From: Kocuria subflava
GTDB lineage: Bacteria; Actinomycetota; Actinomycetes; Actinomycetales; Micrococcaceae
Assembly: GCF_012163155.1 (NCBI RefSeq)
Contig: NZ_JAAVUN010000007.1
Coordinates: forward strand, 1-64,000
Length of the DNA stretch: 64,000 bases
Direction: 5' to 3'
Shown here in pieces: positions 31,658-49,808 of the stretch (position 1 is its first letter; every line of letters begins with the position of its first letter). Below the pieces are notes generated by a model. It searched no databases. It had not been told where the DNA came from and saw only the letters and a list, made by a program, of their open reading frames with translations. A program made the translations under genes and the position numbers.

Positions 31658-31716
31658 CCGAACCCTCACGTCACTCGCCCATCACGCCCTGATGAGCGAG
31701 TGACGTGAGGGTTCGG
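31658..31716. repeat. Long-stem hairpin (subfamily GAACCCTCACG), copy 1
   Basis: The outer 20-bp stem CCGAACCCTCACGTCACTCG is perfect, and CCCATCA/TGATGAG continues it with one mismatch around a five-base loop. It begins seven bases after the permease stop codon. Its partner copy is at 49329-49385. Confidence 0.9.
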
Positions 31717-31801
31717 TGCGCGCACACGGCTGGGACTACGCTGTCTCTGGTCCGCCAACGCACCGCCGGGCCGCTCACCCTCGTCCTCCAGGAGCAGCCC
31801 C

Positions 31802-33226
31802 ATGCCCACCTCCACGGCCTCACCCGCCCCCGGTTCACCGCATCAGCAACCCCCTACGACGCCGCAGCGCCAGTCCTCGCTGGCCCGTCGCCTGGGTCTG
31901 GGGTGGTCTTTGCACGGTGACGGCCACAACGTGTCCCAGGGTTCCGTGGTGCGTCCGGATGAACGGCTGAGCTGGCCCCGGACCATCGGAATCGGTGCCC
32001 AGCACGTGGTGGCCATGTTCGGTGCCACGTTCCTGGTGCCGCTGATCACCGGCTTCCCGCCGTCCACCACGCTGTTCTTCTCCGGGATCGGCACCATCCT
32101 GTTCCTGGTGATCACGGCCGGGCGGGTGCCGTCCTACCTGGGCTCGTCCTTTGCCTTCATCGCCCCGATCGCTGCCGCCATGGGCCAGTACGGGCCCGGC
32201 GGTGCGCTCGGTGGGATCGTGATGGCCGGTGCCGCCTTGTTCCTGATCGGCCTGCTGGTGCAGTTCGTGGGAACCGGCTGGCTGCAGGCGCTCATGCCGC
32301 CGTTGGTCACGGGCACCATCGTGGCGCTGATCGGGTTCAACCTGGCACCGGCGGCCAAGGACAACTTCATGCTGGCCCCGGTCACCGCCCTGATCACCCT
32401 GGCCACCATCATCCTGGTCTCCGTGCTCTTCCGCGGGATCCTGGGACGACTGTCCATCCTGGTGGGTGTGGTGGTCGGCTACCTGACGGCCGTGGTGCGC
32501 GGCGAGGTGGACTTTGCCCCCATCCGCGCAGCCTGGGAGTCCGACGGTCTGGTGGGGCTGCCGCAGTTCCACGCACCCGAGTTCCATCTGTCCCTGATCG
32601 GATTGTTCGTGCCGGTGATCCTGGTGCTGGTGGCGGAGAACATCGGGCATGTGAAGTCCGTGGCCCTGATGACTGGCGATGACCTGGACCCCGTCATGGG
32701 CCGCGCCATCATGGCCGATGGCCTTGCCACCGTGCTGGCCGGCTCCGGCGGTGGATCGGGCACCACCACATACGCGGAGAACATCGGCGTCATGGCCGCC
32801 ACCAAGGTCTACTCCACGGCCGCATACTGGGTGGCCGCCGTGGTGGCCCTGCTGCTGTCCTTCATGCCCGTGTTCGGTGCTGCCGTGGCCTCCGTGCCCG
32901 CCGGTGTGCTGGGCGGTGCCGCCACGGTGCTCTACGGCATGATCGGGATGTTGGGCATCCGCATCTGGGTGCAGAACCGCGTGGACTTCTCCAACCCGGT
33001 CAACCTGACCACCGCCGCCATTGCCATGATCATCGGCATTGCGGATTACACCTGGGACGCGTTCGGCATCCAGTTTGCGGGCATCGCGTTGGGGACTGCT
33101 GCCACGTTGGTCATCTTCCACGGCATGCGCGGTCTGGCGCTGTGGCGCGGCACGGCCGGTGGAGTCGACCCCATCACCCCGGACTACACCCCGGTTCCCA
33201 AGGAGCAAACCGGCCCCATGGGTTGA
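31802..33226 (+). CDS. uraA: NCS2-family uracil/xanthine permease
   Basis: A 474-residue polytopic transporter with about 14 hydrophobic segments after a 45-residue hydrophilic N-terminus. IGIGAQHVVAMFGATFLVPL holds the Gln-His motif of NCS2 carriers. ENIGHVKSVALMTGDDLDPV carries the substrate-binding Glu, and GGGSGTTTYAENIGVMAATK is the second family motif. It imports uracil or another nucleobase with protons. Uracil is suggested by the ENIGHVK and TTTYAENIG text, which is UraA-like. It is transcribed alone between two long hairpins. Confidence 0.92.
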   Translation: MPTSTASPAPGSPHQQPPTTPQRQSSLARRLGLGWSLHGDGHNVSQGSVVRPDERLSWPRTIGIGAQHVVAMFGATFLVPLITGFPPSTTLFFSGIGTILFLVITAGRVPSYLGSSFAFIAPIAAAMGQYGPGGALGGIVMAGAALFLIGLLVQFVGTGWLQALMPPLVTGTIVALIGFNLAPAAKDNFMLAPVTALITLATIILVSVLFRGILGRLSILVGVVVGYLTAVVRGEVDFAPIRAAWESDGLVGLPQFHAPEFHLSLIGLFVPVILVLVAENIGHVKSVALMTGDDLDPVMGRAIMADGLATVLAGSGGGSGTTTYAENIGVMAATKVYSTAAYWVAAVVALLLSFMPVFGAAVASVPAGVLGGAATVLYGMIGMLGIRIWVQNRVDFSNPVNLTTAAIAMIIGIADYTWDAFGIQFAGIALGTAATLVIFHGMRGLALWRGTAGGVDPITPDYTPVPKEQTGPMG

Positions 33227-33454
33227 GCTTCCGCAGTTTGTCCCGACTGAGCAGCGACTTCCGCCGCTGGTCCAGCCCCCATCCGACGCCCGGCCCCAGC
33301 CGAACAGCGACTTCTGCCGGTCATCGGCTCCCCCTCCCTGCCGAGAAGTGTTTTGTGCTGCCCATCAACTCTGATGGGCAGCACAATTCGCTTCTCGGCA
33401 GGGTGCAGCGGAGGAACTCACTTCTCGGCGGAAGGGGCCGGAGGACGTCGACTC
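33227..33454. repeat. Repeat-rich convergent intergenic region with long hairpin
   Basis: A hairpin at 33336-33403 has outer CCCTGCCGAGAAG/CTTCTCGGCAGGG arms and an inner perfect 15-bp TTGTGCTGCCCATCA stem. Before it, AGCGACTTCCGCCG and AGCGACTTCTGCCG recur. After it, ACTTCTCGGCGG gives a further partial arm. The region separates the converging ends of the NCS2 permease and the acyl-CoA hydrolase, has no coding signal, and looks like piled-up remnants of the hairpin family. Confidence 0.7.
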
Positions 33455-34516
33455 TCAGGGGCGGGTTCGCAGTGAACGTGATGTCTTCAGCGCCGAACGG
33501 ATGTGATCAACATCCACCTCAGCCGCGGTGGCCGGCTGCCAAGCGGGGTCGTCTTCTTTGTCGATCAGAGTGCACCGCACCCCCTCGTTGAAGTCCGGGG
33601 CCGTGATGGTGTCCGCGCCCAACGCCAGCTCACGTTCCAGGCACTCGGTGACCGATTCGGAGGCTGCTCCCACATCCAATAGTTCCCAGGTCCGCACCAG
33701 GGACGACGGCGAAGCCCCCGCCAGGTCCTCCCCCGCTGCCGCCATGACTTCTTCCAAGGTGTCTGCCCCGTAGACCGCTTCGATCTGGTCCCAGCGTTCG
33801 GGAAGCGTGGCGTGGGCGACGTCGTCGTCGTTGGTGGCCGCGAACTGCGCCACCGCAGCCTCCACGCCGTCGGTGATGGCAGCCTCCCGGAAGGCTTCCA
33901 AGCGGTCGGAAGGCACCAGGTGGTCGGCCAGGCCGATGGCCACGGCGTCGGCACCGGTGATCCGCTGACCTCCCAGGCCCATCCACCGGCCCACCGCCAG
34001 GGAGGGGCCCCTACCGAGCAAGCTGACGCGCGGCAGGAACCAGGAGGCGCCGATGTCCGGGAAGAAGCCGATGGCGCATTCCGGCATGGCCATCACGGTG
34101 TTCTCCGTGACCACACGGTGGCTGCCGTGCACCGAAAGTCCCATGCCACCGCCCATGGTGTAGCCCTCCATCAGGGCGATGTACGGCTTGGGGTAGGTGG
34201 CAATCAGGTTGTTGAGCGTGTATTCATCCGTGAAGGCGGCCATGCCGGCCTCAACGTTGCCGTCCACCACGGCTTGACGGATCTGGCGGATGTCGCCGCC
34301 TGCGCAGAACGCCCGGGGGGCACTGGCATGAATCAGCACCTGCTCCACCTGAGGATCATCCGACCAGGCCCACAGGGTCTCCAGCAGGTCCCGGTACATC
34401 TGGGCGGTCAGGGCGTTCAAGGCCTTGGGCCGATCCAGAGTAATGACCCCGGTGCCGTTGCGCACCTCCGTGCGGACGTACTGTTCAGGATCTGCGGCAA
34501 CTGTGCTTTGCGTCAT
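33455..34516 (-). CDS. Enoyl-CoA hydratase/isomerase family, 3-hydroxyisobutyryl-CoA hydrolase-like
   Basis: A 353-residue crotonase-fold enzyme, longer than ordinary enoyl-CoA hydratases and carrying the ECH_2 extension of 3-hydroxyisobutyryl-CoA hydrolases. ITLDRPKALNALTAQMYRDL opens the fold. AFCAGGDIRQI and YTMGGGMGLSVHGSHRVVTE form the oxyanion hole, and AMPECAIGFFPDIGASWFLP carries the catalytic Glu and Asp used by the hydrolases. The enzyme would release 3-hydroxyisobutyrate during valine breakdown. No other valine genes are adjacent. It is cytoplasmic. Confidence 0.88.
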   Translation of the reverse strand: MTQSTVAADPEQYVRTEVRNGTGVITLDRPKALNALTAQMYRDLLETLWAWSDDPQVEQVLIHASAPRAFCAGGDIRQIRQAVVDGNVEAGMAAFTDEYTLNNLIATYPKPYIALMEGYTMGGGMGLSVHGSHRVVTENTVMAMPECAIGFFPDIGASWFLPRVSLLGRGPSLAVGRWMGLGGQRITGADAVAIGLADHLVPSDRLEAFREAAITDGVEAAVAQFAATNDDDVAHATLPERWDQIEAVYGADTLEEVMAAAGEDLAGASPSSLVRTWELLDVGAASESVTECLERELALGADTITAPDFNEGVRCTLIDKEDDPAWQPATAAEVDVDHIRSALKTSRSLRTRP

Positions 34517-34558
34517 GGTTCCAAGCCTGTCACACGCCGTGGAGGTTGGGGGTCTGCC

Positions 34559-35458
34559 TCAGCAGGGAGATTCGCTCATGGGGTCCTTCTGGCCGTGGGA
34601 TCCCGGCGGCCACAGGCCACCCACCACGGCCAGGGCCACATCCGCCCGGTCCGTGACCAGGCCGTCGTACCCCATCTCCATCAGGGACTGCATGTCCTTG
34701 GGGCTGTTGACGGTCCACACGTGGACGTCCTTGCCATAACGGTGCGCGGCATCCAGAAAACGTTGCGTGGCCAGGCGGGTCCACCCCAACCGGCGCCCGA
34801 TCTTGGGGATTTTCTTGACCTTGGGCAGTATCCACCCCAGGTACATGGGCATCTGGATGGAGTCGAACGGCGGAACCCAGCGCGCCAACACACGGTGCAC
34901 CACAGGCCAGGCAGCCGGAACGGTGTTGAAGACCACCATGGCCGCCACAAAACCCGTTGTTCCCGCTGATGTGCTCAGTGGCCGGACCCCTCGATCGCTC
35001 AGCGCCTTCAGGGTGCGACCACGACGAGCATCCGAGAAGGAGGCAATGCGGACCCGGCCTGCCGCATCCATCTCCACCAACAGATCTGCCAGCGCCGTCA
35101 CGGAAGCCTCGTCCTTGACGTCTATGTTCACCTGCATGGTGGGCAGTGCTTCCAGGACCTCGCGCAGCGTGGGCACGGGGCTCTCCCCAGCCACACGGAG
35201 GTCAGCCAGGTCCTTGTGTCGGACGTCGTTGACCTGCCCAGCGCCTTGGGTGACACGGTCCAACGTGGTGTCGTGGAAGGCCAGCACCACACCGTCACAG
35301 GTGGTGTTGACGTCGGTCTCGATCCACACGCACCCAAGATCGTGGGCGGCTTGGAAAGCAGGCATGGTGTTCTCCGCGCCGTTGGGCGCGAATCCGCGGT
35401 GGGCCAGCACCTTGTGGGTATTGGTGACCGATCGCCTGGATCCGGGTTCAGCAGTCAT
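34559..35458 (-). CDS. Glycerophosphodiester phosphodiesterase
   Basis: A 299-residue GDPD-family TIM-barrel hydrolase. KVLAHRGFAPNGAENTMPAF has the catalytic His and the metal-binding Glu-Asn pair, WIETDVNTTCDGVVLAFHDT holds the Glu-x-Asp metal ligands and the second catalytic His, and VHVWTVNSPKDM closes the barrel. There is no signal peptide, so it works in the cytoplasm on glycerophosphodiesters. It follows the acyl-CoA hydrolase upstream on the same strand with a gap of 42 bases, and the two may be co-transcribed. Confidence 0.93.
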   Translation of the reverse strand: MTAEPGSRRSVTNTHKVLAHRGFAPNGAENTMPAFQAAHDLGCVWIETDVNTTCDGVVLAFHDTTLDRVTQGAGQVNDVRHKDLADLRVAGESPVPTLREVLEALPTMQVNIDVKDEASVTALADLLVEMDAAGRVRIASFSDARRGRTLKALSDRGVRPLSTSAGTTGFVAAMVVFNTVPAAWPVVHRVLARWVPPFDSIQMPMYLGWILPKVKKIPKIGRRLGWTRLATQRFLDAAHRYGKDVHVWTVNSPKDMQSLMEMGYDGLVTDRADVALAVVGGLWPPGSHGQKDPMSESPC

Positions 35459-35539
35459 GGGGTGAGCTTAATGCCCCGGGTTACCCATGCGTAACTTAAG
35501 CCTCTTGATGACGCATGCTCAACGGGGTTCGGGTGCTCT

Positions 35540-36385
35540 TCACCGCGCTTGGCGCAGCTGCTCACGCCGAGCCAAGAACTGCTCAATCACCTGAGCCACA
35601 CCGTCCTCCTCGAAGGCAGGTGCCGTCCGCTCCACAGCTTCGACGACGGCGGGAGCACCCGAGGCCAACGCGAATCCATAACCGGCCCAGGTCAACATCT
35701 CCAGGTCATTGGTCATGTCACCAAAGGCCATGACTTGATGGCTCTCCACACCGAGTTCCGCGCAGACCGACTTCAACGTCTCCGCCTTGCTCAAACCCAA
35801 ACGGGACATCTCAGCCAAGGGTGAGCTGGGCACCGAGTGGGTCACGGACATGTGCGGTGCCGCATGCTCTCTGACCTGCTGAACGAACTGGGCGGGGTCA
35901 TGGTCATCACGCTTGGCCAGGAACTTGACCACGGCATCATCCGGGCGCAGCAGGGATTCAAAAGGCCCCACGGTGACTTTGTCCGAACCCGTGCGATCCG
36001 TGGGAATCCACCCGGGTTCTGCCACCACACCGCGCAGGGTTTCAGCACTGAAGTAGACCCCGGGAATCGCCTCCCGCAGTTGCCCGGCCACCCGCAGGGC
36101 AATGTGACCGTCAAAGGTGTTGGCTGCCAAAACTTTGTCTGCGGCCAGGTCATAGACCATGGCCCCGTTGGCGCAGATCACGGTGCCCACGGAGCTGACC
36201 AACGGACTGACCTGCTCACTGAGCGGATGCAGCCACCGGGAGGGCCGGCCCGTGACAAAAACCACCGGAACCCCCGCCTCCTCCAACGCGGTGAGCGCAC
36301 GGAGGGAGCGGGGGCGGAACCGGAAGTCCTCCCCAATCAACGTCCCGTCAAGATCGCTGGCCACCAGGCAAACGTCTTGAACCAA
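35540..36385 (-). CDS. Cof-type HAD-IIB phosphatase
   Basis: A 281-residue HAD hydrolase with motif I SDLDGTLIGEDFRFRPRSL at the N-terminus, motif II in VVFVTGRPSRWLHPL and motif IV in FGDMTNDLEMLTWAGYGFAL. The cap domain between them is type IIB. The start is a TTG at 36385; an in-frame stop lies a short way upstream and no ATG is available, so a GTG eight codons later is a possible alternative. It lies 29 bases downstream of the PEBP-family gene. The substrate is unknown, probably a sugar phosphate. Confidence 0.85.
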   Translation of the reverse strand: MVQDVCLVASDLDGTLIGEDFRFRPRSLRALTALEEAGVPVVFVTGRPSRWLHPLSEQVSPLVSSVGTVICANGAMVYDLAADKVLAANTFDGHIALRVAGQLREAIPGVYFSAETLRGVVAEPGWIPTDRTGSDKVTVGPFESLLRPDDAVVKFLAKRDDHDPAQFVQQVREHAAPHMSVTHSVPSSPLAEMSRLGLSKAETLKSVCAELGVESHQVMAFGDMTNDLEMLTWAGYGFALASGAPAVVEAVERTAPAFEEDGVAQVIEQFLARREQLRQAR

Positions 36386-36414
36386 CCGTTGGGGGTCGGC
36401 ACCCAGGAGATTGC

Positions 36415-36933
36415 TCAGTCCTCAGTCTCCTCATGCGTACCGGTCAACATGGCGCGTCCAATGCCGTGGAAGAACAGGTTGAAGTTCACCACCGCAGGGC
36501 TTGCGCCCTCCACATCCAAGTGGTCCGTGTCCACTGCGGTCACGCAGAAGATGTAGCGGTGGGCACCATGACCTGGCGGGGGTGCCGCACCCTCGAAGGC
36601 ATCCGAACCGCCGTCGGTCCGGTGGGTGGTGGCCCCTTGAGGCGGCTGTGCTGCGGCACCGGTGTCCAAGCTGGTCACATCCGCGGGAATGTTGGACACG
36701 CACCAGTGCCAGTACCCGGACGGGGTGGGAGCATCAGGGTCAAAACAGGTCACCACATAGGACTTGGTGCCTTCAGGTGCCCCGGACCAGGACAGCTGCG
36801 GTGAGGTGTCCGATCCACCCAGGCTTTCGGTCACCTGTGCTGTGGGCAGCGGCTGACCGTCCGTGATGTCCTCTGAAGTCAGCGTGAATGTGGGCAGTTC
36901 CGGGAGATCGGCGTAGGGATCGCGGTTGAGCAC
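36415..36933 (-). CDS. YbhB/YbcL-family (PEBP) protein
   Basis: A 172-residue phosphatidylethanolamine-binding-protein homologue. SPQLSWSGAPEGTKSYVVTC and FDPDAPTPSGYWHWCVSNIP give the ligand-site Asp-Pro-Asp and WHW motifs, and APPPGHGAHRYIFCVTAVDT is the conserved GxHRY segment. It has no signal peptide. The family binds anionic groups and may act in signalling or kinase inhibition; no ligand can be named. An AAGGAGGAA sequence precedes the ATG at 36933. Confidence 0.92.
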   Translation of the reverse strand: MLNRDPYADLPELPTFTLTSEDITDGQPLPTAQVTESLGGSDTSPQLSWSGAPEGTKSYVVTCFDPDAPTPSGYWHWCVSNIPADVTSLDTGAAAQPPQGATTHRTDGGSDAFEGAAPPPGHGAHRYIFCVTAVDTDHLDVEGASPAVVNFNLFFHGIGRAMLTGTHEETED

Positions 36934-37123
36934 AGTTCCTCCTTGAGCTTGCTCGACTGTGGTCGCCTGACATCTTGCGCGCCACCAGGCGTGAACGCCT
37001 GTCCCTTTACGCTACCCAAGCTTTGCCCAGGATGCCCATGCTGCAATCCCGCGTGAACACCTAAGAATGCCGGAGCTGTCCCGATGTGCTTGTCCGTCCG
37101 TGAGGTCGCAGCGGCCTCTACCC

Positions 37124-37292
37124 TCACAGATCCCATGGATTCAGCAGGCTGACTCCCGTGCGTTGGAAGTCCTTGGTGTTGCGGGTGACCAGTGTGAGGC
37201 GGTGCTCCAGAGCGGTTGCGCCCATGAGGGCATCCATCTCTGGCATCGGATCGGGCATGGCTGAGGACGTTGGTGTCCAGCAGGTACTTCAC
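37124..37292 (-). pseudogene. VapC-type PIN toxin, internally deleted and frameshifted
   Basis: The 5' end reads KYLLDTNVLSHARSD, the standard VapC N-terminus with its first Asp. The 3' end, in another frame, reads DALMGATALEHRLTLVTRNT and then KDFQRTGVSLLNPWDL, the standard VapC C-terminus with TRN and the late Asp. The middle of about 60-70 codons is absent, and the two parts are out of frame, so no toxin can be made. The gene overlaps the antitoxin stop by four bases (GTGA). Confidence 0.85.
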
Positions 37293-37540
37293 AGATCGAT
37301 TGCCCGTTCGGGGTCGATGCGGCGCTCAGGCAGGTCGAGTTCGATGTTGCGGTCCTGCCCCCTCCAGAGACGGTCACCCATTGGTTCCTGTCTGCCCGAA
37401 AGTCGATCGAACTCCGCGGCGGTGAGCAACACGTGCGAGGGTCGCCCGTGATCCGTGATGGTGACCGGCCCGTTCTCGGCAGCCCGTTTGGCGGCGGAGA
37501 CGTCCCGATTGAAGTCGCGACTGGTGATGGTGGTGTTCAC
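37289..37540 (-). CDS. Phd/YefM-family antitoxin
   Basis: An intact 83-residue antitoxin. TTITSRDFNRDVSAAKRAAE is the DNA-binding start, GPVTITDHGRPSHVLLTAAE the core of the Phd fold, and the remainder a charged tail (ELDLPERRIDPERAIDL) that would wrap the toxin. The GTG at 37540 has GGGAGG six bases upstream and gives the standard family N-terminus; an ATG at 37546 would sit one base from that site. Its cognate VapC just downstream is destroyed, so this is an orphan antitoxin that may still repress its own promoter. Confidence 0.85.
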   Translation of the reverse strand: MNTTITSRDFNRDVSAAKRAAENGPVTITDHGRPSHVLLTAAEFDRLSGRQEPMGDRLWRGQDRNIELDLPERRIDPERAIDL

Positions 37541-37619
37541 GAGCATCCTCCCGCGGGTACGAATTGTACCTACAGTAGGCAGCATAACGGGTGAACCCGC
37601 AGCGCATCCGGTCCAAGGA

Positions 37620-38564
37620 TCAGTCAGTGGGCTGCTCCAAGGCATCCAGCTCGTCGCGGCGCGGCAGATCCGCACCAGCGCGGGAGACCGTGATGGCGGC
37701 AGCATCCGCCGAACGCCGCAGGATGGCTTCCACATCCGTGGCTGGCAGCGCGTTGATCCGCTCCCCAGCACCGGCTCCGTCCAGGCCACGGTCCGTGAAC
37801 TGGCTGATGAGTGCTGCCATGAAGGTGTCCCCGGCACCCACCGTGTCCACCACATCGGTCTTGCGGGCGGGAACTTCCACGCCCTCGGCTCCTGTGGATT
37901 CAGTGATGGCCCACGGGCCCAGTTCACCGCGGGTGACCACCACCATCTTGGCGCCCAGACGGTGCCAGGCTCGAGCCGATTCCTGCAGGGTGGAGGTGGG
38001 GTAGAGCCACTGCAGGTCCTCGTCAGAGGCTTTGACCACGTCCGCACGGGAGGCCAGGTGCTCGGCGCGGGCGCGCACCGCTTCCACGTCCGTGGTGATC
38101 TGCGGGCGGCAGTTGGGGTCATAGGTGACCAGGATCTGACCTGAGGCGGCTTCCACGGCCTTGACCACGTTTTCCGCACCGGGTTCCACAACGGTGGCAA
38201 TCGAACCCACGTGCAGGGCGCTGGACTCGGTGACCATGGCCTCCAACTCCGCCTGCTCCACGGGCAACTCCCATGTCATCTGGAAGTTGTAGTCAGCCGC
38301 ACCGTTTTCCCCGATCACGGCTTCTGCCACGGAGGTGGCCGAGTCGTGGGTGGGCAGCGGAAGTTCAATGCCCTCAGCACCCAGGTGCTGTGCCAGGAGT
38401 TGGCCGTCGTCGTCGTTGCCCCAGGCGCCCAGGAAACGGACGGGATGCCCCAGCCTGGCCAGGCCGAGGGCAACGTTCATGGGGCTGCCGCCGGGGTGCC
38501 GCACGGGCTCCCGATCCGGGCGCGAAACAACGTCAATGAGGGCTTCCCCGATCACAGTCAGCAT
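37620..38564 (-). CDS. PfkB-family carbohydrate kinase, fructokinase-like
   Basis: A 314-residue ribokinase-fold sugar kinase. LTVIGEALIDVVSRPDREPV and HPGGSPMNVALGLARLGHPV are the fructokinase-type N-terminal motifs, TYDPNCRPQI lies in the middle, and VVDTVGAGDTFMAALISQF near residue 240 is the second PfkB signature with the catalytic Asp. The PGGSPMN and DPNCRP text points to fructose or a related ketose as substrate. There is a short 3' gap before the Phd antitoxin. No regulator or transporter adjoins it. Confidence 0.88.
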   Translation of the reverse strand: MLTVIGEALIDVVSRPDREPVRHPGGSPMNVALGLARLGHPVRFLGAWGNDDDGQLLAQHLGAEGIELPLPTHDSATSVAEAVIGENGAADYNFQMTWELPVEQAELEAMVTESSALHVGSIATVVEPGAENVVKAVEAASGQILVTYDPNCRPQITTDVEAVRARAEHLASRADVVKASDEDLQWLYPTSTLQESARAWHRLGAKMVVVTRGELGPWAITESTGAEGVEVPARKTDVVDTVGAGDTFMAALISQFTDRGLDGAGAGERINALPATDVEAILRRSADAAAITVSRAGADLPRRDELDALEQPTD

Positions 38565-38640
38565 GCCCAAACACTAACACCGGGGACCTGCGCCACAGGC
38601 GGGGATGACGCTGGTTGACGGGCCCCGCACCCAGGCGTTC

Positions 38641-40017
38641 TCAGCCCATCCACCAAGCCTCAACGGCGCGCTTCAGACCGTAAAGATCCTCCACGTGCAC
38701 CATCTCCCGGGCTGAGTGCATGGACAGCAACCCCACGCCCACATCCACGGTCCGCACACCCAGCCTGGCGGCGGTGATGGGACCGATGGTTGACCCACAC
38801 GGCACCGTGTTGTTGGACACGAATTCCTGCGTGGCGACACCTGCCGCCTGGCAGGCCAGCTTCCACTGCGCGGCACCTTCAGCATCCGTGGTGTAGCGCT
38901 GGTTGGCGTTGATCTTCAGCAGCGGACCGCCGCCGGGGACGGGCTTGTTGGCGGGGTCGTGGTGGCCTGGATAGTTGGGGTGCACCAGGTGCCCGGCATC
39001 TGAGGACAAGCACCACGACGACGCCCACGCCACCTGCCGCTGCTCATCCGACCAGCCCAGCCCTGCACCGATCCGGGTCAGCACATCGCCCAGCAGCGGC
39101 CCACCGGCACCCGAGCGGGTCTGGGATCCGATTTCCTCGTGATCAAAAGCCGCCAACACGGTGATGGTGGGGGCAGATTCCAAATCCTCCACGTGCTCGG
39201 TCACAACGCTCACGCTTGCATGAACGGAGGTCAGATTGTCCAGCCGGCCGGAGGCCAGGAACTCACCGTGGGCACCGAACCGTTGGGCTGGCTGGGTGTC
39301 TGCCAGCACGACGTCCCACCCCAGGATCTCCTGCGCGGCCACCGCTGGCCCTTCAGCGTGCGCTCCGAGATGCGCCAGGACGTCCCCTGGCTGGGGACCG
39401 CAGCCCCACACCGGTTGTGTGTGCTGCTGCGGATCCAGCGTGAGCCCCTGGTTGGCACTGCGATCCAGGTGAATGGCCAACTGCGGAATGCGCGCCACCG
39501 GCCCGGTGGACACCAGACGAGTCTCCACACCCGAATCCGTGCGCACCGTGATCCGCCCCGCGATGCACAGATCCCGGTCCAGCCACGAGTTCAGCAGCGG
39601 CCCGCCATAAACCTCCACACCGGCCTGCCACCACGTGTGCGCACCCGTGCTCGGCTGGGGCTTGAGCTTGAACGACGGCGAGTCCGTGTGTGCCCCCAGG
39701 ATCCTGAATCCCACCGGGGTGTTGTCCAGGTGGGCGGGAAGCACCCAGGCAACCAGAGCGCCGTCGCGAATCACGTAGCAGCGCCTGCCGGTGGTGGATT
39801 CGGGGTCGGCAGCGGGCCAGGGCTGGGTTTCGGACAACTGCGTGAAGCCGGCTTGCTCCAGGCGTCGGGCAGCCTCCGCCACGGCGTGGTAGGAACTCGG
39901 CGCAGCCTGGACGAACTTCCCCAGGTCCTCAGCGTGGGCGACCGCCTGTGCTGACGGCCCTGAACCTGACGTGGACACGCCCGAGTCCGATGTTGATTCG
40001 GCGCGACGTTGGGTCAC
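38641..40017 (-). CDS. M18-family aminopeptidase
   Basis: A 458-residue metallo-aminopeptidase. ILGAHTDSPSFKLKPQP holds the first zinc His and catalytic Asp, VLAAFDHEEIGSQTRSGAGG the catalytic and metal-binding Glu pair, PCGSTIGPITAARLGVRTVD and LLSMHSAREMVH the remaining ligands. It removes acidic or neutral N-terminal residues from peptides in the cytoplasm. The start overlaps the stop of the upstream CPBP protease gene (ATGA at 40014-40017), so the two are co-translated. Confidence 0.93.
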   Translation of the reverse strand: MTQRRAESTSDSGVSTSGSGPSAQAVAHAEDLGKFVQAAPSSYHAVAEAARRLEQAGFTQLSETQPWPAADPESTTGRRCYVIRDGALVAWVLPAHLDNTPVGFRILGAHTDSPSFKLKPQPSTGAHTWWQAGVEVYGGPLLNSWLDRDLCIAGRITVRTDSGVETRLVSTGPVARIPQLAIHLDRSANQGLTLDPQQHTQPVWGCGPQPGDVLAHLGAHAEGPAVAAQEILGWDVVLADTQPAQRFGAHGEFLASGRLDNLTSVHASVSVVTEHVEDLESAPTITVLAAFDHEEIGSQTRSGAGGPLLGDVLTRIGAGLGWSDEQRQVAWASSWCLSSDAGHLVHPNYPGHHDPANKPVPGGGPLLKINANQRYTTDAEGAAQWKLACQAAGVATQEFVSNNTVPCGSTIGPITAARLGVRTVDVGVGLLSMHSAREMVHVEDLYGLKRAVEAWWMG

Positions 40018-41567: not shown

Positions 41568-41618
41568 GCCTTCACCGTATCCAAGACCGGGGACACCAAG
41601 AATCCACCTTAGGAACGA

Positions 41619-42368: not shown

Positions 42369-42411
42369 GCTCACACTGTAGTGCCGCCGCACTGCCCTTC
42401 AGACCAGCCGG

Positions 42412-43311
42412 TCAGAGCTCAGATTCATCAGGGGTGGTGAGCCGGATGCGCTGTGCGCCGGTGTACACATTGGCCCCGTCCCCGCGGTTGAAACCCACCA
42501 GGGTCAACCCGGTCCGGTCCGCCACGTCAACGGCCAACGCAGAGGGTGCTGAGACTGCAGACATCACGGGGATTCCCGCCATCACGGCCTTCTGCACCAG
42601 TTCAAAGGACGCCCGGGCAGAGACCTGCAGCACCGTGGCTTCAAGCGGCAGAAGGTTGTGCTCCAGGGCCCACCCCACCACTTTGTCCACGGCGTTGTGA
42701 CGGCCCACGTCCTCTCGCACACACAGCAGTTCCGGCTCACCAGGTGCCGCGCCGTCGTCGTCGGCCTGGGGAGAGATCCGGAAAAGGGCAGCGGCGTGCA
42801 CACCACCGGTTGAGGAGAACAGGCGCTGCTGCGAGCGCAGCGCGGCAGGCAGCCCCAGCACCATGGGCAGCTCCACCACCAACGGATCGGTCAGGGGCTC
42901 GTACGGGGAAACCTTGAGCACCCCGTCAATGGAGGCCGTCCCGCACACCCCGCACGACGACGACGTGTAAACCTCCCGCCGTTTGGTCTCCGCCCTGGCT
43001 GCCACGGCCGGGTCCAGGCGGACGTCCACCACGTTGTAGTCCCGTGTCCCCTCGGCATTGATCCCGGAGCGGTAGTCCATGCGCAGGATCTCCGACTGCC
43101 GGGTGATGATCCCCTCCGAGACCAGGAACCCCGCGGCCATGTGGAAGTCATGGCCCGGGGTTCGCATGGTCACGGCAAAGGACTGCCCGTTGAGCCTGAT
43201 TTCCAGGGGCTCCTCGCCCACCAGGGTGTCAGCGCGAGCCTCAGCCCGCAGCTGCCCTGATGCGTCCGTGCGGATCCGCTGGATGCGGCGCCGCTGGGTG
43301 GAGCGAGTCAT
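42412..43311 (-). CDS. fdhD: Formate dehydrogenase accessory sulfurtransferase FdhD
   Basis: A 299-residue cytoplasmic protein that passes sulfur from a cysteine desulfurase to the molybdenum cofactor of formate dehydrogenases. LVGEEPLEIRLNGQSFAVTM and RTPGHDFHMAAGFLVSEGII are the N-terminal signatures, SSSCGVCGTASIDGV carries the persulfide Cys pair (about residue 118), and CVREDVGRHNAVDKVVGWAL lines the cofactor pocket. The ATG at 43311 is the family start. No formate dehydrogenase gene is in the window. The nearby nar/moa locus shows that this organism makes Mo enzymes. Confidence 0.95.
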   Translation of the reverse strand: MTRSTQRRRIQRIRTDASGQLRAEARADTLVGEEPLEIRLNGQSFAVTMRTPGHDFHMAAGFLVSEGIITRQSEILRMDYRSGINAEGTRDYNVVDVRLDPAVAARAETKRREVYTSSSCGVCGTASIDGVLKVSPYEPLTDPLVVELPMVLGLPAALRSQQRLFSSTGGVHAAALFRISPQADDDGAAPGEPELLCVREDVGRHNAVDKVVGWALEHNLLPLEATVLQVSARASFELVQKAVMAGIPVMSAVSAPSALAVDVADRTGLTLVGFNRGDGANVYTGAQRIRLTTPDESEL

Positions 43312-43333
43312 CGCAGGCCACCCCGGGTGAGGG

Positions 43334-45100
43334 TCACTTACCGCCCTTGAGGATGTCGAATGCGGCATCCTGCGCGGCCTGACCGGTGGGTGCGGTCACG
43401 GCGGCCTGGGCGGCACGGGCGATCTGGTCATCAGTGGCCTGACCCAACTGCACACCCACGGCGGCAAGAGCAGGAGCGGCTGCAGACAGAGACGTCACAC
43501 CGAGCCCCACCAACACGCAGGCCAGCAGCGGGTCCGCAGCGGCCTCACCGCACACACCCACAGGCTTGCCGGCACGCTGCCCGGCGTCCGCAGCCATCTT
43601 GATGAGCTTGAGCACTGCCGGCTGCCAGGGGTCGGTCAGCTCGGAGAGCTGGGATGCCATGCGGTCAGCTGCCATGGCGTACTGCGTGAGGTCATTGGTG
43701 CCGATGGAGAAGAACTCCACGTGCTCCAGCAGCTCATCTCCCATGAGTGCTGCGGAGGGAACCTCGATCATCACACCGGGGATCAGACCGCGGTCACGGC
43801 ACATCTCCCCGTACCACTTGGCCTCATCCACTGTGGCGATCATGGGTGCCATGACCCAGGGCTCGGCCCCGGTGCCCTTGGCGGCAACCGCCACCGCATC
43901 GAGTTGGCGTTCCAGAACACCGGGCTGCTCAAAAGCAATGCGCACACCGCGCACACCCAGGGACGGGTTGGGCTCATCCGGCATGGTGGCAAATGCCAAC
44001 GGCTTGTCCGAACCCGCATCCAGGGTCCGCACCACAACCTTCTGCTCCGGGAAGGCCTCAAAGACCTCGCGATAGATCCCGGCCTGGGTTTCCACGGAGG
44101 GCTCGGACTGGGCGGAGAGGAAGCACAGTTCAGTGCGGAACAACCCAACACCTTCGGGCAGGCCCGTACCGGCAGCGGCGCGGGCGCCTGCACCGTCCTG
44201 CACGTTGGCCAGCAGCTGCACACGCGTTCCATCGGCCGTGACAGCGGGTCCGGACCAGGCACGGATCTTGGCCTGCATCTGCGCGGACTCATCCGCACGC
44301 TCCTTGGCCTTTGCGGGGTCCGGGGTGGTTTCAATCTCCCCGCGCTCACCGTCCAACAGGATCAAAGCCCCGTCCTCAACACCTTCCAGTGCTGCACCCA
44401 CACCCACCACACACGGGATGCCGAACTGGCGGGCAATGATGGCGGTGTGGCTGGTCTTGCCGCCCAGCTGGGTGGCAATGCCGCGCACGAACTCCGGGTC
44501 GAGCCCTGCGGTGTCTGCCGGGGCAAGGTCATCGGCCAGCAGGATCACGGGCTCATCCGGGCTGGGCACACCGGGCTCGGGCTCACCGCGCAGTTCGGCC
44601 ACCACGCGGTCACGGATGTCCTTGAGGTCGGTGGTGCGCTCAGCCATGAGGCCACCGATTTTCTCGAACTTGGCAACAAACGTGTCCGTTGCACGCACCG
44701 TGGCAACCACAGCGTTGACACCGGCCTCAACGTGCTTGTTCACGGCACGGCGCCAGCCCTTGTCCGTGACCAAGGATGCGGTGGCTTCCAACACCTCAGC
44801 GGCGTGACCCTCAGCCTTCTCCGCGCGACCCTGCAGTCGGCCCGAAACGGTTGCCGCGGCGGTATCGAACTGCTGCTTCTGCTCCGCACGGTCCGCCTCA
44901 GGGACCTCTGGACCGTCCGTGGGCAATTGCGGGCGTGGCCTGGCCCAAAGGGCGGGGCTGGCGGCGATGCCGGCAACCACTCCGATGCCCTGGAGGGTGG
45001 CGCCTCCAGCCGGTGCAGCAGTTTCTCGCGACTCTGACGGCTGGCCGTCAGCAGACTCACCATTGGTGGCGGCCGGGTCGAAACGGGCATCAACAGGCAT
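43334..45100 (-). CDS. ptsI: Phosphoenolpyruvate-protein phosphotransferase (PTS enzyme I)
   Basis: A 588-residue general PTS enzyme that moves phosphate from PEP to HPr. GGKTSHTAIIARQFGIPCVV contains the phospho-His (about residue 217). The C-terminal TIM barrel has FRTELCFL, VVVRTLDAGSDKPLAF, FFSIGTNDLTQYAMAADRM, and the active-site Cys in GVCGEAAADPLLACVLVGLG. The ATG at 45100 is preferred to one 42 codons upstream because GGAG lies ahead of it and the extension runs into the intergenic promoter region. It is divergent from fruR-fruK-fruA. The last 100 residues are Ala-rich. Confidence 0.96.
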   Translation of the reverse strand: MPVDARFDPAATNGESADGQPSESRETAAPAGGATLQGIGVVAGIAASPALWARPRPQLPTDGPEVPEADRAEQKQQFDTAAATVSGRLQGRAEKAEGHAAEVLEATASLVTDKGWRRAVNKHVEAGVNAVVATVRATDTFVAKFEKIGGLMAERTTDLKDIRDRVVAELRGEPEPGVPSPDEPVILLADDLAPADTAGLDPEFVRGIATQLGGKTSHTAIIARQFGIPCVVGVGAALEGVEDGALILLDGERGEIETTPDPAKAKERADESAQMQAKIRAWSGPAVTADGTRVQLLANVQDGAGARAAAGTGLPEGVGLFRTELCFLSAQSEPSVETQAGIYREVFEAFPEQKVVVRTLDAGSDKPLAFATMPDEPNPSLGVRGVRIAFEQPGVLERQLDAVAVAAKGTGAEPWVMAPMIATVDEAKWYGEMCRDRGLIPGVMIEVPSAALMGDELLEHVEFFSIGTNDLTQYAMAADRMASQLSELTDPWQPAVLKLIKMAADAGQRAGKPVGVCGEAAADPLLACVLVGLGVTSLSAAAPALAAVGVQLGQATDDQIARAAQAAVTAPTGQAAQDAAFDILKGGK

Positions 45101-45174
45101 GGGGTGCGCTCCTCGTCCTTGAGATCTCCTGCACACATGAAAGTGGCGGAATTCCCAGGATACGTGGCCCGTCG

Positions 45175-45194
45175 AACCCACGACAACATGGGTT
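45175..45194. promoter_or_regulatory. Inverted repeat at the fruR promoter
   Basis: AACCCA at 45175-45180 and TGGGTT at 45189-45194 form an inverted repeat with an 8-base spacer that overlaps the -35 box of fruR and lies in the divergent ptsI-fruR gap. It is a plausible operator for the DeoR-type repressor. Confidence 0.45.
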
Positions 45195-45229
45195 GACAAG
45201 CAACAAATTCGGGCATACTCATTCATATA
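45193..45229 (+). promoter_or_regulatory. fruR promoter, leaderless start
   Basis: A consensus TTGACA at 45193-45198 is followed by CATACT/TACTCA at 45214-45221, which puts the expected transcription start at or within a few bases of the ATG at 45229. There is no ribosome-binding sequence, so the operon mRNA is probably leaderless. Confidence 0.6.
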
Positions 45230-46164
45230 TGGGCGTAACAGAGATCACGCAGGGCGCTGACGGTCAGTTCCGTGGCGCCGGATCCGCCGGGGGATCACAG
45301 AATCTTCCCTCCGGCGTTGAACCCCCTGTGTCCACGCCCGATTCCAAGCGTTCCGGTGACTCACCAGCCCCCACCATGTACGCGGAGGAGCGGCGCCAGG
45401 CGATTGTTCGCATGGCATCAGCTCGCGGGCGAGTGGCGGTGACCGATCTGGCCGCCACCTTTGCGGTGGCCCCTGAAACAATTCGCCGGGACCTGGACGT
45501 GCTTGTCCGATCTGGTTTGGTTGACCGCGTGCACGGCGGGGCCATTCCCCGATCCTCCTACGGCACCGCCGAATCCACCGCCCGGGAGCGGCGCACCACC
45601 CGCGGGGAGGCCAAGGCCGCCATTGCCCGCGTAGCCATGGCGTATCTGCCGGCGGCCCACGGGAGCATCATCCTGGACGGTGGCACCACCACCGGTGCCC
45701 TGGCCGCGGAGATCACCTTGCGCGCGGAACAGGACCCGTCCACCGGACCACTGACCGTCATCACGGACTCAGTGCGCACCGGACTGGAGCTGTCCACCAC
45801 TCACAACCTGTCCGTCCACCTCTTGGGTGGTGTGATCCGTGAGGTCACGGAGACCGTGGTGGGTGCAACCGCCTTGACCATGCTGGGCCGGGTTGCCGCG
45901 GATGTTGCCTTCCTGGGCACCAACGGGCTGTCTGCCGCCTACGGACTGACCACCCCGGATGTTGAGGAAGCCGCCGTGAAACGCCTGATGGCCACGCGTT
46001 CCCAGCGCTGTGTCCTGCTGGCTGACTCCTCCAAGTTCGACTCCGACTTCTTGTGCACTTTTGCGGAACTGGACCAGATAGACGTCCTGATCACCGATGC
46101 CGAGCCCCCCACACGACTTGCCCAGGCCCTTGCCCAGAATGAAATCGAGGTTGTGATCGCATGA
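45229..46164 (+). CDS. fruR: DeoR-family transcriptional regulator of the fructose operon
   Basis: A 311-residue regulator. After a 49-residue Gly/Pro-rich leader, MYAEERRQAIVRMASARGRV starts the DeoR winged helix, with VTDLAATFAVAPETIRRDLD as the recognition helix-turn-helix. The C-terminal sugar-phosphate-sensing domain has IILDGGTTTGALA and LLADSSKF. An internal ATG at 45376 would remove the leader, but the promoter at 45193 points to the ATG at 45229. It is translationally coupled to fruK (ATGA). It is expected to sense fructose 1-phosphate and control fruRKA, and perhaps the divergent ptsI. Confidence 0.9.
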   Translation: MGVTEITQGADGQFRGAGSAGGSQNLPSGVEPPVSTPDSKRSGDSPAPTMYAEERRQAIVRMASARGRVAVTDLAATFAVAPETIRRDLDVLVRSGLVDRVHGGAIPRSSYGTAESTARERRTTRGEAKAAIARVAMAYLPAAHGSIILDGGTTTGALAAEITLRAEQDPSTGPLTVITDSVRTGLELSTTHNLSVHLLGGVIREVTETVVGATALTMLGRVAADVAFLGTNGLSAAYGLTTPDVEEAAVKRLMATRSQRCVLLADSSKFDSDFLCTFAELDQIDVLITDAEPPTRLAQALAQNEIEVVIA

Positions 46165-47126
46165 TCATCACATTCACCGCCAATCCGAGCATTGACCGCA
46201 CCGCTGATCTCTCCACCGTCCTGGAACGCGGCGGGGTCAACCGTGTGGTTGCCGTTCATGACGGGCCCGGCGGCAAGGGAATCAACGTGTCCCGTGCTCT
46301 CACCCTGGCAGGTACGGCCACCACTGCGGTTTTCCCGGCGCCTGCAGGTGACCCCCTGGTTCAGGCCGTGAAGGAAGCAGAAGTTCCTTTTTCCCTGGTG
46401 GAGCGTGACGTCCGTGTCCGCACCAACCTGACCGTCACGGAACCGGACGGGACCACCACCAAGATCAACGAGCCCGGCGCACCTTTGGATGCAGACGCCC
46501 AACGCACGTGCTTGGATGCCTTGCTGGCTGCCGCCAAGCCGGGTGACTGGGTGGCACTGTGCGGCTCCCTTCCTCCCGGCCCGTCAGAGGACTGGTACGC
46601 CCAGATGGTGGCGGAACTCAAGCAGGCGGGTGTGCGAATCGCCGTCGACACCTCCGATGCCCCATTGATCGCACTGGCCGGGGATCTGGACACCGCAGCC
46701 CCTGACCTGCTCAAGCCCAACGGCCTGGAGCTGGGGCAGTTGGTGGGGGCTGATGGCCCCGCCATTGAGGCCGCCGCCGAAAACGGCGACTTCCTTCCTG
46801 CGGCCCAGGCCGCACGCAAACTCGTGGAGCGCGGCGTCACCGCCGTGTTGGCCACGCTCGGCGCTGCCGGGGCGGTACTGGTCACCGCTGACGGCGCCTG
46901 GGTGGGCAATCCCCCACCCATCACTCCGGTGTCCACCGTGGGCGCCGGGGATTCCTCCCTGGCCGGTTTGCTGCTGGCCTTCACCCAGAACTTGGATCCC
47001 GCCGAATGCCTGCGGCACGCCGTGGCCTACGGCTCCGGCGCCACCGCCCTTGCCGGCACCGGTGTTCCCAGTCCCGATCAGGTCGACCTCGACCGAACCT
47101 CCGTCACCGAGCTCACGCTCGACTGA
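46161..47126 (+). CDS. fruK: 1-phosphofructokinase
   Basis: A 321-residue PfkB-family kinase that phosphorylates fructose 1-phosphate, made by the PTS, to fructose 1,6-bisphosphate. ITFTANPSIDRTADLSTVLE and HDGPGGKGINVSRALTLAGT are the N-terminal motifs of the 1-PFK/LacC group, and STVGAGDSSLAGLLLAFTQN near residue 255 is the catalytic signature. The start overlaps the fruR stop by four bases. fruA follows after a 41-base gap. Confidence 0.95.
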   Translation: MIITFTANPSIDRTADLSTVLERGGVNRVVAVHDGPGGKGINVSRALTLAGTATTAVFPAPAGDPLVQAVKEAEVPFSLVERDVRVRTNLTVTEPDGTTTKINEPGAPLDADAQRTCLDALLAAAKPGDWVALCGSLPPGPSEDWYAQMVAELKQAGVRIAVDTSDAPLIALAGDLDTAAPDLLKPNGLELGQLVGADGPAIEAAAENGDFLPAAQAARKLVERGVTAVLATLGAAGAVLVTADGAWVGNPPPITPVSTVGAGDSSLAGLLLAFTQNLDPAECLRHAVAYGSGATALAGTGVPSPDQVDLDRTSVTELTLD

Positions 47127-47167
47127 CACCCACCTGTCCGATCCCTTCACACAGCAAGGATTCACCC

Positions 47168-49300
47168 ATGTCAGAGCTACCTCTGATCGTCCCAGAGCTG
47201 GTCGTCCTCGATCAGAACCTAGGCGCTCACAAGAATGATGTGATCACGCAACTCTCCGGCGTCGTGGCTGCTGCAGGCCGCGCTGATTCCGCTGACGGCC
47301 TGGCCTCCGATGCCCTGGCTCGCGAGGGCCAGTCCCCCACCGGTCAGCCCGGTGGCATCGGCATCCCGCACTGCCGCTCCGCACACGTGAAGACCACGTC
47401 CCTGGGTTTCGCCCGTTTGGCAGAGCCGGTTGATTTTGGCGCCAAGGACGGCCCTGCGGACCTGATCTTCCTGATTGCCGCCGCGGATGGCGAAGGCAAG
47501 GAGCACCTCAAGCTGCTCTCCAAGCTGGCGCGCGCCATGGCCCGCAAGACGTTCCTGAGCTCCCTGCGGGAAGCCCAGACCGCTGAGGAAGTCGTGGCGA
47601 TCGTGGAGGAGGTCCTGGCTCCCAAGCAGACCCAGACCTCCAACGACGCCGCAGCATCCGCCGGCAACGCAGGCTCCGGTTCCAGCGGCGCAACTGCCGC
47701 TGGTGCCACTGCAGCCGGTGCTGCTGGTGCAGGTGCCGCCGGCGCGGGTACGGGTGCCGGTGAGGGTGGTGCCAAGCGCCGCCTGGTGGCCGTGACCTCC
47801 TGCCCCACGGGCATTGCCCACACCTACATGGCCGCGGAGGCCCTGGAGCAGAAGGCCCAGGAGATGGGCCACGAGCTGGTGGTGGAGACCCAGGGTTCCT
47901 CCGGTGGCACCAACCTGACGCAGGAGCAGATCGACTCCGCTGACGCCGTGGTCTTTGCCGTGGGTGTGGGTGTGCGTGACCGCGAGCGTTTTGCCGGCAA
48001 GCCCGGTGTGGAAGCCGGCGTGAACGTTGGTGTTTCCGATCCGGAGGGTCTGATCAACCGCGCACTGGCGGCAGCGGATGACCCCAATGGTCACCGCATT
48101 GCCGGTGGTGCCGGGTCCGGTGCCGGTGCCGGTGAGTCCTCGGGCTCCTCGGAGGGGCAGTCCTGGGGCCGTCGCATCCAGCAGGCGCTGATGACCGGTG
48201 TGTCCTACATGATCCCGTTCGTGGCCGCCGGCGGTCTGTTGATCGCTCTGGGCTTTGCCATGGGTGGCGCCGAGCGTGTGGCCGAGGTGGCACCGGATGT
48301 GGTTGCCCAGAACACGTTGTTCAACCTGCCTGCTGATGGCGGTTTGATGCTCTACCTGGGTGCGGTGTTCTTCACCATCGGTGGGCTCGCCATGAACTTC
48401 CTGGTACCGGCCCTGTCCGGCTACATCGCTTACGCGCTGGCCGGCCGTCCCGGCATTGCCCCGGGCTTTGTGGGCGGTGCCATCGCCGTCGCCGTGGGCG
48501 CGGGCTTCATCGGCGGTTTGGTCACGGGTCTTGTGGCCGGTCTGATCGCCATGTGGATCGCCTCCATCAAGGTTCCGCGCTGGCTGGCGGGCCTCATGCC
48601 CGTGGTCATCATCCCGCTGGTCACCACCACCCTGGTCGGCCTGCTCATGTACCTGCTGCTGGGCAAGCCGTTGGCCTCCCTCATGACCTGGCTGCAGGAC
48701 GGCCTGAACTCCATGACCGGCACCTCCGCCATTCTCCTGGGCGTCATCCTGGGCCTCATGATGTGCTTCGACCTGGGCGGCCCCGTCAACAAGGCTGCGT
48801 ACCTGTTCGCCACGGCCGGTCTGGCCCAGGGCACCGATGCCGCGATGAGCATCATGGCCACCGTCATGGCTACCGGCATGGTTCCCCCGTTGGCCATGGC
48901 CCTGTCCACCACGGTCCGCGGCAAGCTGTACTCGGAGGCCGAGCGTGAGAACGGGCGCACCGCGTGGTTGTTGGGTGCCTCCTTCATCTCCGAAGGTGCC
49001 ATCCCGTTCGCTGCAGCCGACCCGCTGCGCGTGATCCCGTCCATGATGGCCGGCGGCGCCGTGACCGGTGCTCTCACGATGGCCTTGAACGTCACCCTCA
49101 ACGCCCCGCACGGCGGCATCTTTGTGGTGCCGGCCATGGGCAACCCGTGGGGCTTCCTGATCGCCCTGGTGGCCGGTGTGCTGGTTTCCGCACTGATCGT
49201 GACCTTGCTCAAGACTCAGCGTCAGAAGTCCCTGATGGCTGCTGCTCAGCGTGAGGCTCAGACGGAGAACGCTCCCCGCGCAGCATCCGTGAACGCCTGA
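47168..49300 (+). CDS. fruA: PTS fructose transporter subunit IIABC
   Basis: A 710-residue fused transporter. The EIIA domain (residues 1-155) has the phospho-His in GGIGIPHCRSAHVKTTSLG (about residue 67). An Ala/Gly/Ser linker follows. EIIB (about 205-310) has the phospho-Cys in RRLVAVTSCPTGIAHTYMAA (about 214). EIIC (about 330-690) is polytopic and includes GVSYMIPFVAAGGLLIALGF and CFDLGGPVNKAAYLFATAG. It takes up fructose as fructose 1-phosphate at the membrane, receiving phosphate from HPr. The ATG has AAGGA upstream. A long perfect hairpin follows 28 bases after the stop codon. Confidence 0.97.
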   Translation: MSELPLIVPELVVLDQNLGAHKNDVITQLSGVVAAAGRADSADGLASDALAREGQSPTGQPGGIGIPHCRSAHVKTTSLGFARLAEPVDFGAKDGPADLIFLIAAADGEGKEHLKLLSKLARAMARKTFLSSLREAQTAEEVVAIVEEVLAPKQTQTSNDAAASAGNAGSGSSGATAAGATAAGAAGAGAAGAGTGAGEGGAKRRLVAVTSCPTGIAHTYMAAEALEQKAQEMGHELVVETQGSSGGTNLTQEQIDSADAVVFAVGVGVRDRERFAGKPGVEAGVNVGVSDPEGLINRALAAADDPNGHRIAGGAGSGAGAGESSGSSEGQSWGRRIQQALMTGVSYMIPFVAAGGLLIALGFAMGGAERVAEVAPDVVAQNTLFNLPADGGLMLYLGAVFFTIGGLAMNFLVPALSGYIAYALAGRPGIAPGFVGGAIAVAVGAGFIGGLVTGLVAGLIAMWIASIKVPRWLAGLMPVVIIPLVTTTLVGLLMYLLLGKPLASLMTWLQDGLNSMTGTSAILLGVILGLMMCFDLGGPVNKAAYLFATAGLAQGTDAAMSIMATVMATGMVPPLAMALSTTVRGKLYSEAERENGRTAWLLGASFISEGAIPFAAADPLRVIPSMMAGGAVTGALTMALNVTLNAPHGGIFVVPAMGNPWGFLIALVAGVLVSALIVTLLKTQRQKSLMAAAQREAQTENAPRAASVNA

Positions 49301-49328
49301 TGTCCTGAGTTTCCTGGCACGCAGGCAC

Positions 49329-49385
49329 CGAACCCTCACGCCACTACGCCATCACCCGTTGATGGCGTAGTGGCGTGAGGGTTCG
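49329..49385. repeat. Long-stem hairpin (subfamily GAACCCTCACG), copy 2
   Basis: A perfect 26-bp stem (49329-49354 with 49360-49385), starting CGAACCCTCACGCCACTACG, closes on a five-base loop. It lies just after fruA. It matches the copy at 31658-31716 in its outer 12 bases, and its inner pairs differ by compensatory changes. Confidence 0.9.
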
Positions 49386-49538: not shown

Positions 49539-49808
49539 ATGCCCAGCAAGAAGGTTTCCGTCGGTTCCGCCGTCGGCCTGCACGCACGTCCCGCCGCCAT
49601 CATCGCCGAGGCTGCTGGTGAGTTCGACGACGAGATCTTGATCGGCCTGGTCAACGATCCCGATGAAGAGCCCGCAGACGCCTCCTCCTCCCTGCTGATC
49701 ATGGCTCTGGGCGCGGAGAAGGGCACCGAGGTTGAGGTCAGCTCCGAGAACGCTGAGGCCGTGGAGAAGATCGCCGCCCTGATCGAGAAGGATCTGGACG
49801 CCGAGTGA
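49539..49808 (+). CDS. ptsH: HPr phosphocarrier protein
   Basis: An 89-residue PTS carrier that relays phosphate from enzyme I to FruA. The phospho-His is His15 in VGSAVGLHARPAAI. The region ADASSSLLIMALGAEKG corresponds to the regulatory-serine loop of HPr, with Ser at the expected site. TAGGAGGAA precedes the ATG; 21 codons upstream in frame are excluded. It is separated from fruA by a long hairpin and probably has its own promoter, then ends at a compact terminator. Confidence 0.97.
   Translation: MPSKKVSVGSAVGLHARPAAIIAEAAGEFDDEILIGLVNDPDEEPADASSSLLIMALGAEKGTEVEVSSENAEAVEKIAALIEKDLDAE

Follow-up and report, generated by a model that had tools for sequence, protein, structure and literature searches.

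The window analysed here comprises 64,000 nucleotides (nt) of the Kocuria subflava genome (assembly GCF_012163155.1, contig NZ_JAAVUN010000007.1, positions 1 to 64,000 of the forward strand) and contains two strong hairpins, each located between two genes. Hairpin 1 (31658..31716, no strand assigned) begins 6 nt after the end of an ABC transporter permease gene (30752..31651, + strand; Pfam BPD_transp_1, E 6.7e-28) and is followed by a gene of the xanthine/uracil permease family (31802..33226, + strand; Pfam Xan_ur_permease, E 1.9e-78). Hairpin 2 (49329..49385, no strand assigned) lies 28 nt after the stop codon of a phosphotransferase system (PTS) enzyme II gene encoding EIIA-IIB-IIC (47006..49300, + strand; Pfam PTS_EIIA_2, PTS_IIB and PTS_EIIC), and the HPr gene is found 3′ of it (49539..49808, + strand; Pfam PTS-HPr, E 1.5e-19). 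Both belong to a set of dispersed palindromes of about 57 nt that we call family A. What is new in this family is that its members occupy common gene ends across species, yet their stems have changed in concert within each species.

The stem of hairpin 1 has 27 positions, one of them a C-A mismatch (C31679/A31695), and its loop is CGCCC; hairpin 2 has a 26-bp stem without mismatch and the loop CCCGT. A first-pass annotation, made from the sequence alone, had placed both hairpins correctly and was right about their five-base loops and common outer word. It also gave them equal lengths, which they do not have: hairpin 1 measures 59 nt, with one extra outer C-G pair, and hairpin 2 measures 57 nt. 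Its description of the stem pairing fits hairpin 2, with 26 intact pairs, and left out the mismatch of hairpin 1. The RNA folding energies are -52.9 kcal/mol for hairpin 1 and -54.6 kcal/mol for hairpin 2, far below those of shuffled sequences (z = -9.7 and -11.9, respectively). Four paired differences between the stems had been reported and all are correct: T31671-A31703 versus C49341-G49373, followed by C-G versus A-T, G-C versus C-G, and C-G versus G-C. However, three of the four are contiguous (CTCGCCCATCA versus CTACGCCATCA), and this block can be read as one inserted A and one deleted C per arm, so three independent substitutions are not required. Since the two hairpins are paralogues, the pair alone cannot demonstrate change at one site.

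The outer word (GAACCCTCACG/CGTGAGGGTTC) is confined within the window to the four hairpin arms, even when one mismatch is allowed, a level at which shuffles lead one to expect about 2 matches by chance. A shared word in inverted pairs 3′ of genes recalls the DNA uptake signals that have been co-opted into terminators in Neisseria and Pasteurellaceae (available part of PMC1852404). Such signals generally number 1,000 or more copies (PMC1852404), whereas in the window the word is limited to the two hairpins and its exact inverted pair occurs 4 times in 3.03 Mb; with the word count in the window so far from ~1,000 or more, we rejected this barely credible explanation.

This genome (G000; 3.03 Mb in 284 contigs) has the exact outer-word pair at 4 sites and a 9-base version at 6, and a covariance model built from 19 copies gave 47 strand matches at E ≤ 0.1. 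Across 27 Kocuria genomes, 8 have a model match at E ≤ 0.001. Four of these (G000, G004, G018 and G021) are strong, with 35-50 strand matches each, and the other four have 1-2 weak ones. We studied 60 full-length copies in 41 stretches (L numbers) of the four strong genomes. They were retained from 66 sites after excluding six weak or 56-nt sites (L085:9769, L093:9493, L094:10603, L095:3952, L089:1025, and position 2752 of the window); a match in L028, from a metagenome-assembled genome labelled as a cyanobacterium, was also excluded, its inner stem being unrelated. A known Rfam element was rejected because the window had no Rfam match at the gathering score. In five further stretches Rfam gave only a SAM-IV riboswitch (L091:13507-13621) and a TPP riboswitch (L086:1035-1136), both in G000 and away from the hairpins. 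Integron attC sites were considered and dropped since the hairpins are dispersed. We found no published description of family A among the literature matches listed, which reflects the limit of that search and is not proof of absence.

The alignment of 60 copies shows that pairing is kept while the stems change. In total, 93.7% of stem cells pair, compared with 81.5% in shuffles, and two-sided change is seen at 18 of the 26 pairs (11 in shuffles). The number of stem cells changed on both sides is 184, a value reached in none of 500 shuffles (mean 57), so the maintained pairing proposed from two hairpins is supported well beyond them. The two-sided signal vanishes when the partner is shifted by one to three columns, and permuting right arms among the copies of each of the four genomes lowers the pairing (z 5.0 to 5.9). 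For the 19 model seeds alone, the number of pairs with two-sided change is unexceptional (8 versus 6.5 in shuffles; 64 of 500 shuffles) and the other measures are exceptional. The outer word and the apex are largely fixed, and the paired positions between them vary freely; the invariance of the outer word is built in, as the seeds were selected by this word and later copies were found by the same model.

Change at single sites can be followed in 13 groups of orthologous copies (37 of the 60), put together manually from reciprocal best hits within stretches mostly chosen around known matches, which favours presence in both species. These loci provide 1040 stem-pair comparisons, of which 709 show no change and 115 a change on one side only. 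Both sides differ in the rest, with Watson-Crick pairs in both species in 169 and a non-Watson-Crick pair in at least one species in 47. Both-arm changes exceed those expected under independence in all six species pairs (24 versus 7.3, 43 versus 14.8, 36 versus 17.0, 40 versus 10.7, 41 versus 15.2, and 32 versus 10.8), comparisons that are mutually non-independent. Permuting loci with column rates fixed left a smaller excess, with the observed values reached in 5, 1, 70, 102, 32 and 34 of 2000 permutations in the same order of pairs. The first-pass annotation had tied its case to an excess of compensatory changes, and 24-43 both-arm changes per species pair against 7-17 provide one. One-sided changes are nevertheless common (115 of the 331 differing comparisons), suggesting that neither selection nor copying between arms is strict.

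A paired change is commonly read as proof that an RNA is functional. Arm-to-arm copying, which the first-pass annotation itself had allowed, could also keep the pairing, so the direct evidence of function that it claimed is not established. In its purest form this would be mutation alone, in which template switching, or repair templated by the hairpin, rewrites one arm from the other and the structure is unselected, a mechanism that has been proposed for RNA hairpins (available part of PMC8794818). The block that distinguishes hairpins 1 and 2, readable as one insertion and one deletion mirrored across the arms, agrees with such copying. Many mismatches persist, however. The five copies of loci F and G, which come from three species, all contain a bubble at pairs 20-22. 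The restriction to gene ends and the fixed words require a different cause. We consider mutation alone improbable.

Selection on RNA should make G-U mismatches on the sense strand more frequent than A-C mismatches where the direction of transcription is known. In tandem contexts, family A has a G-U to A-C ratio of 16:14 with a fixed register and 12:11 with a common rule, and the lack of G-U preference agrees with mutation alone, although this is a weak test on small numbers. The test was inconsistent on other hairpins. Pooled tandem hairpins gave 21:8 for short and 24:28 for long ones (Fisher P 0.035). By sample, the ratio was 14:1 for short and 4:1 for long hairpins in a 400-kb grid sample of G000, the only sample not centred on matches and one whose contigs were picked by hand, and 7:7 for short hairpins in match-centred stretches including other species. 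A contrast between short RNA-like hairpins and long palindromes was withdrawn, the excess being confined to the grid sample. The RNA form suggested by the first-pass annotation thus gains no specific support; for family A the G-U test neither favours nor rules out selection at the RNA level, and DNA arm copying or recognition of folded DNA may be at work.

The position of the copies is strongly biased toward gene ends. With genes called by our own codon-score script (start positions approximate), 50 of the 60 copies are preceded, at 60 nt or less, by a stop codon that reads into them, compared with 15.6% of random intergenic placements. The 58 copies with both neighbours called consist of 30 in convergent, 24 in tandem, and 4 in divergent contexts. 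Strong hairpins of any sequence follow a similar order in the grid sample, where they occupy 23 of 35 convergent gaps, 26 of 147 tandem gaps, and 1 of 49 divergent gaps. The grid sample has 62 of them, and shuffling that keeps base composition only gives 0. Gene-end hairpins are therefore common in G000, where family A is one among several types of long palindrome. Another family of long palindromes in this sample (GGTGGCAGTT...CATCA) occurs at L166:2500, L169:14264 and L178:13237, with a looser relative at L164:13947. Family A itself presents a stable hairpin just 3′ of a gene without the U-rich tail of a classical L-shaped terminator, and a strong stem after genes without a U-tract is the form of a U-less or I-shaped terminator.

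We find that the same gene ends carry a hairpin in different species. Among 19 convergent gaps comparable between genomes (in mostly match-centred stretches), 11 have a hairpin in all of the genomes compared, 5 have one in only part of them, and 3 lack it altogether; all three gaps comparable in four genomes have one throughout. The 13 orthologue groups of family A stand at common gene ends across species, 5 of them in all four genomes. Hairpin 1 has a family-A counterpart between the orthologous genes in G021 (L103:18347), and in G018 a family-A copy (L066:1117) precedes the orthologue of its downstream gene. Hairpin 2 has an orthologous family-A hairpin in G021 (L103:1351), where the region 5′ of the HPr gene appears conserved with G000 when the gaps are compared by eye; in G018 the hairpin 2 gap is occupied by an unrelated hairpin. 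Beyond family A, a scripted search found a hairpin within 140 nt of the 3′ end of ndk in 20 of the 27 Kocuria genomes (the G000 copy missed the cut); 3 of the 20 are family A, and by reading the left arm contains CGACGG in 12 of the 17 others. Within the same order as Kocuria, 75 of 297 genomes contain the pair ACGACGACGG/CCGTCGTCGT, and controls gave values near zero; many of the places listed resemble paired stems (by look, not counted) and some do not. The hairpin thus tends to persist while its sequence turns over.

The stems themselves follow the species and not the locus. Sequence identity is 0.642-0.812 between orthologues and 0.655-0.802 between non-orthologues of the same two species (for example 0.812 versus 0.802). 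Copies within a species share 0.784-0.879 identity (0.843, 0.879 and 0.862, with G000 lowest at 0.784), and for 26 of 37 copies the nearest neighbour belongs to the same species, while for 3 it is the orthologue. Each lineage has a stem dialect in which both arms differ together: CGAAACTCGC in G018, GCnGnTGTCCCG in G004, and CACGnnACT in G000 and G021. Saturated neutral change could mask orthology, yet it would not generate dialects. Copies up to 3.5 kb apart resemble each other more than distant copies do (11 pairs, mean excess 0.092, 0 of 5000 resamplings), with the best match in direct orientation in 10 of the 11 pairs. Four of these pairs exceed every distant pair of their genome in both likeness and run length, and several others do not stand out. 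This greater likeness of neighbouring copies suggests gene conversion or local duplication. The G018 dialect also appears in one G000 copy (L086:5796), whose flanking proteins are nearer to G018 than to G021; this copy looks as if it was acquired together with its neighbours.

Species dialects and similarity within genomes would also be left by a mobile palindrome resembling repetitive extragenic palindromes (REPs) or miniature inverted-repeat transposable elements (MITEs). Here an enzyme recognising folded DNA would insert or replace copies, which would survive mainly in gene-end gaps since insertion elsewhere is harmful, and paired change would arise because the folded DNA must serve as a substrate or because a folded template is copied. 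The largely fixed outer word and apex, with free variation of the pairs between them, agree with such an enzyme, as does one orthologous gap that measures 30 nt without the hairpin and 85 nt with it. However, the Y1/RAYT (REP-associated tyrosine) transposase (PF01797) is found in 0 of 27 Kocuria genomes by a search that was positive in 5 of 14 control genomes, and many sites are common to several species. Although family A does consist of dispersed extragenic palindromes, the first of these results rules out a RAYT-mobilised REP. Hairpin 2 had no match among plasmids and hairpin 1 none among phages, searches by which a plasmid- or phage-borne element was ruled out. Mobile palindromes of any kind seem to us an unlikely, though not negligible, origin.

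We also considered the exchange of gene cassettes, as in some places one species has two hairpins with genes between them and another species has one hairpin (L088 versus L104, L100 versus L075, and L101 versus L067). A terminator of its own for each transcription unit explains the extra hairpins, so cassettes are not claimed. Two open frames of G021 (L101:2511-4202), one nucleotidyltransferase-like by eye, lie between two family-A hairpins, and near the orthologous gene of G018 only one family-A hairpin is present.

As judged from sequence, family A most likely consists of gene-end structures, namely U-less (I-shaped) terminators or 3′-end barriers that are two-sided where genes converge and that derive from a repeat homogenised within genomes; we give this reading a probability of roughly 0.6. 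The copies would end transcription on one side in tandem contexts and on both sides between convergent genes. Within a genome they would be homogenised by gene conversion, best seen between neighbours, and after a change the pairing would be restored by selection, by hairpin-templated correction of one arm from the other, or by both; the present results do not separate selection from arm copying. Several observations weigh against such gene-end structures. For 10 of the 60 copies, a crude gene caller placed no stop codon within 60 nt, and 5 of the 19 convergent gaps lack a hairpin in some species. Family-A copies have no U-tract, with at least 3 T in 8 nt in only 3 of 21 tandem copies, and a scan for classical terminators was negative at both hairpin sites. 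To these can be added the missing G-U excess, and simple termination leaves the shared stem words unexplained.

A more speculative proposal, which we consider unlikely, is that family A is a new kind of gene-end palindrome that has no known transposase and whose copies, in their dozens, are rewritten in step per species at fixed gene ends. Both arms would be rewritten at the DNA level, either by gene conversion and hairpin-templated arm copying or by a protein reading the fixed outer word and apex of the folded form, giving each lineage its own gene-end dialect. The G000 dialect is GAACCCTC, and ACGACGACGG may be another. With strong paired change and no strand-specific G-U signature so far, family A is a natural case in which to separate RNA selection from DNA arm copying. 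It further offers a manageable system in which to study how short non-coding elements at shared bacterial sites evolve in concert, and an example of lineage-specific gene-end stem words in actinobacteria.

The window contains additional palindromes. A 60-nt palindrome with a CCATCA-loop-TGATGG apex (2750..2809, no strand assigned) is a distant relative of family A that scores 40.8 bits with the family model and stands outside the 60-copy set. The same CCATCA/TGATGG apex is found in a 68-nt gene-end palindrome of a different family (33336..33403, no strand assigned) between convergent genes. The apex CCATCA-N-TGATGG was tried as a family-wide signal and occurs at 36 sites in G000 and at 0-14 in the other 148 genomes drawn; we make no wider claim for it. 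Two palindromes of another family (24995-25058 and 25753-25816), identical at 57 of 64 positions, flank the region of an open reading frame (25128-25601), and have relatives elsewhere in G000 (L173:12309 and L091). Between the strong palindrome at 2750-2809 and a weak family match at 3982-4037, a gene (2960-3955) encodes a protein with weak, sub-cut-off similarity to the MTES_1575 endonuclease domain. In G018, G021 and G004, genes related to it have a family-A hairpin on either side, as does a shortened one in G000 (L091).

Several known systems resemble family A in part. The TRIT terminator motif of mycobacteria, associated with RNIE by Gardner et al. 2011, is reportedly a sequence-conserved gene-end hairpin in an actinobacterium, and in this it resembles family A. 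Uptake signals paired into terminators also have a lineage-specific word forming an inverted repeat after genes, as described in the available part of PMC1852404, but the family-A word is not found outside the hairpins within the window. REPs and the GTAG- and CGTC-tagged repeats are likewise dispersed extragenic palindromes with several families per genome, and the CGTC repeats have no dedicated transposase (PMC3733652). A REP measures 20-40 bp and has its tag at one end, whereas family A is 57 nt and near-symmetric and no RAYT was found in the genus; in the available part of PMC3733652, CGTC families are reported from five phyla, actinobacteria not among them. Template switching accounts for paired changes without G-U intermediates, but it is a mutation mechanism and not an element, and leaves the position and dialect of family A unexplained (PMC8794818). 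Term-seq in Streptomyces clavuligerus has made known both strong stem-loops lacking U and two-sided transcript ends (PMC8269248). These ends share with family A their GC-rich stem-loops after genes, the lack of a U-tract, and in some cases two-strandedness; in contrast to the general features of stem and composition described for them in the available part of that paper, family-A loci share stem words that change in step per species.

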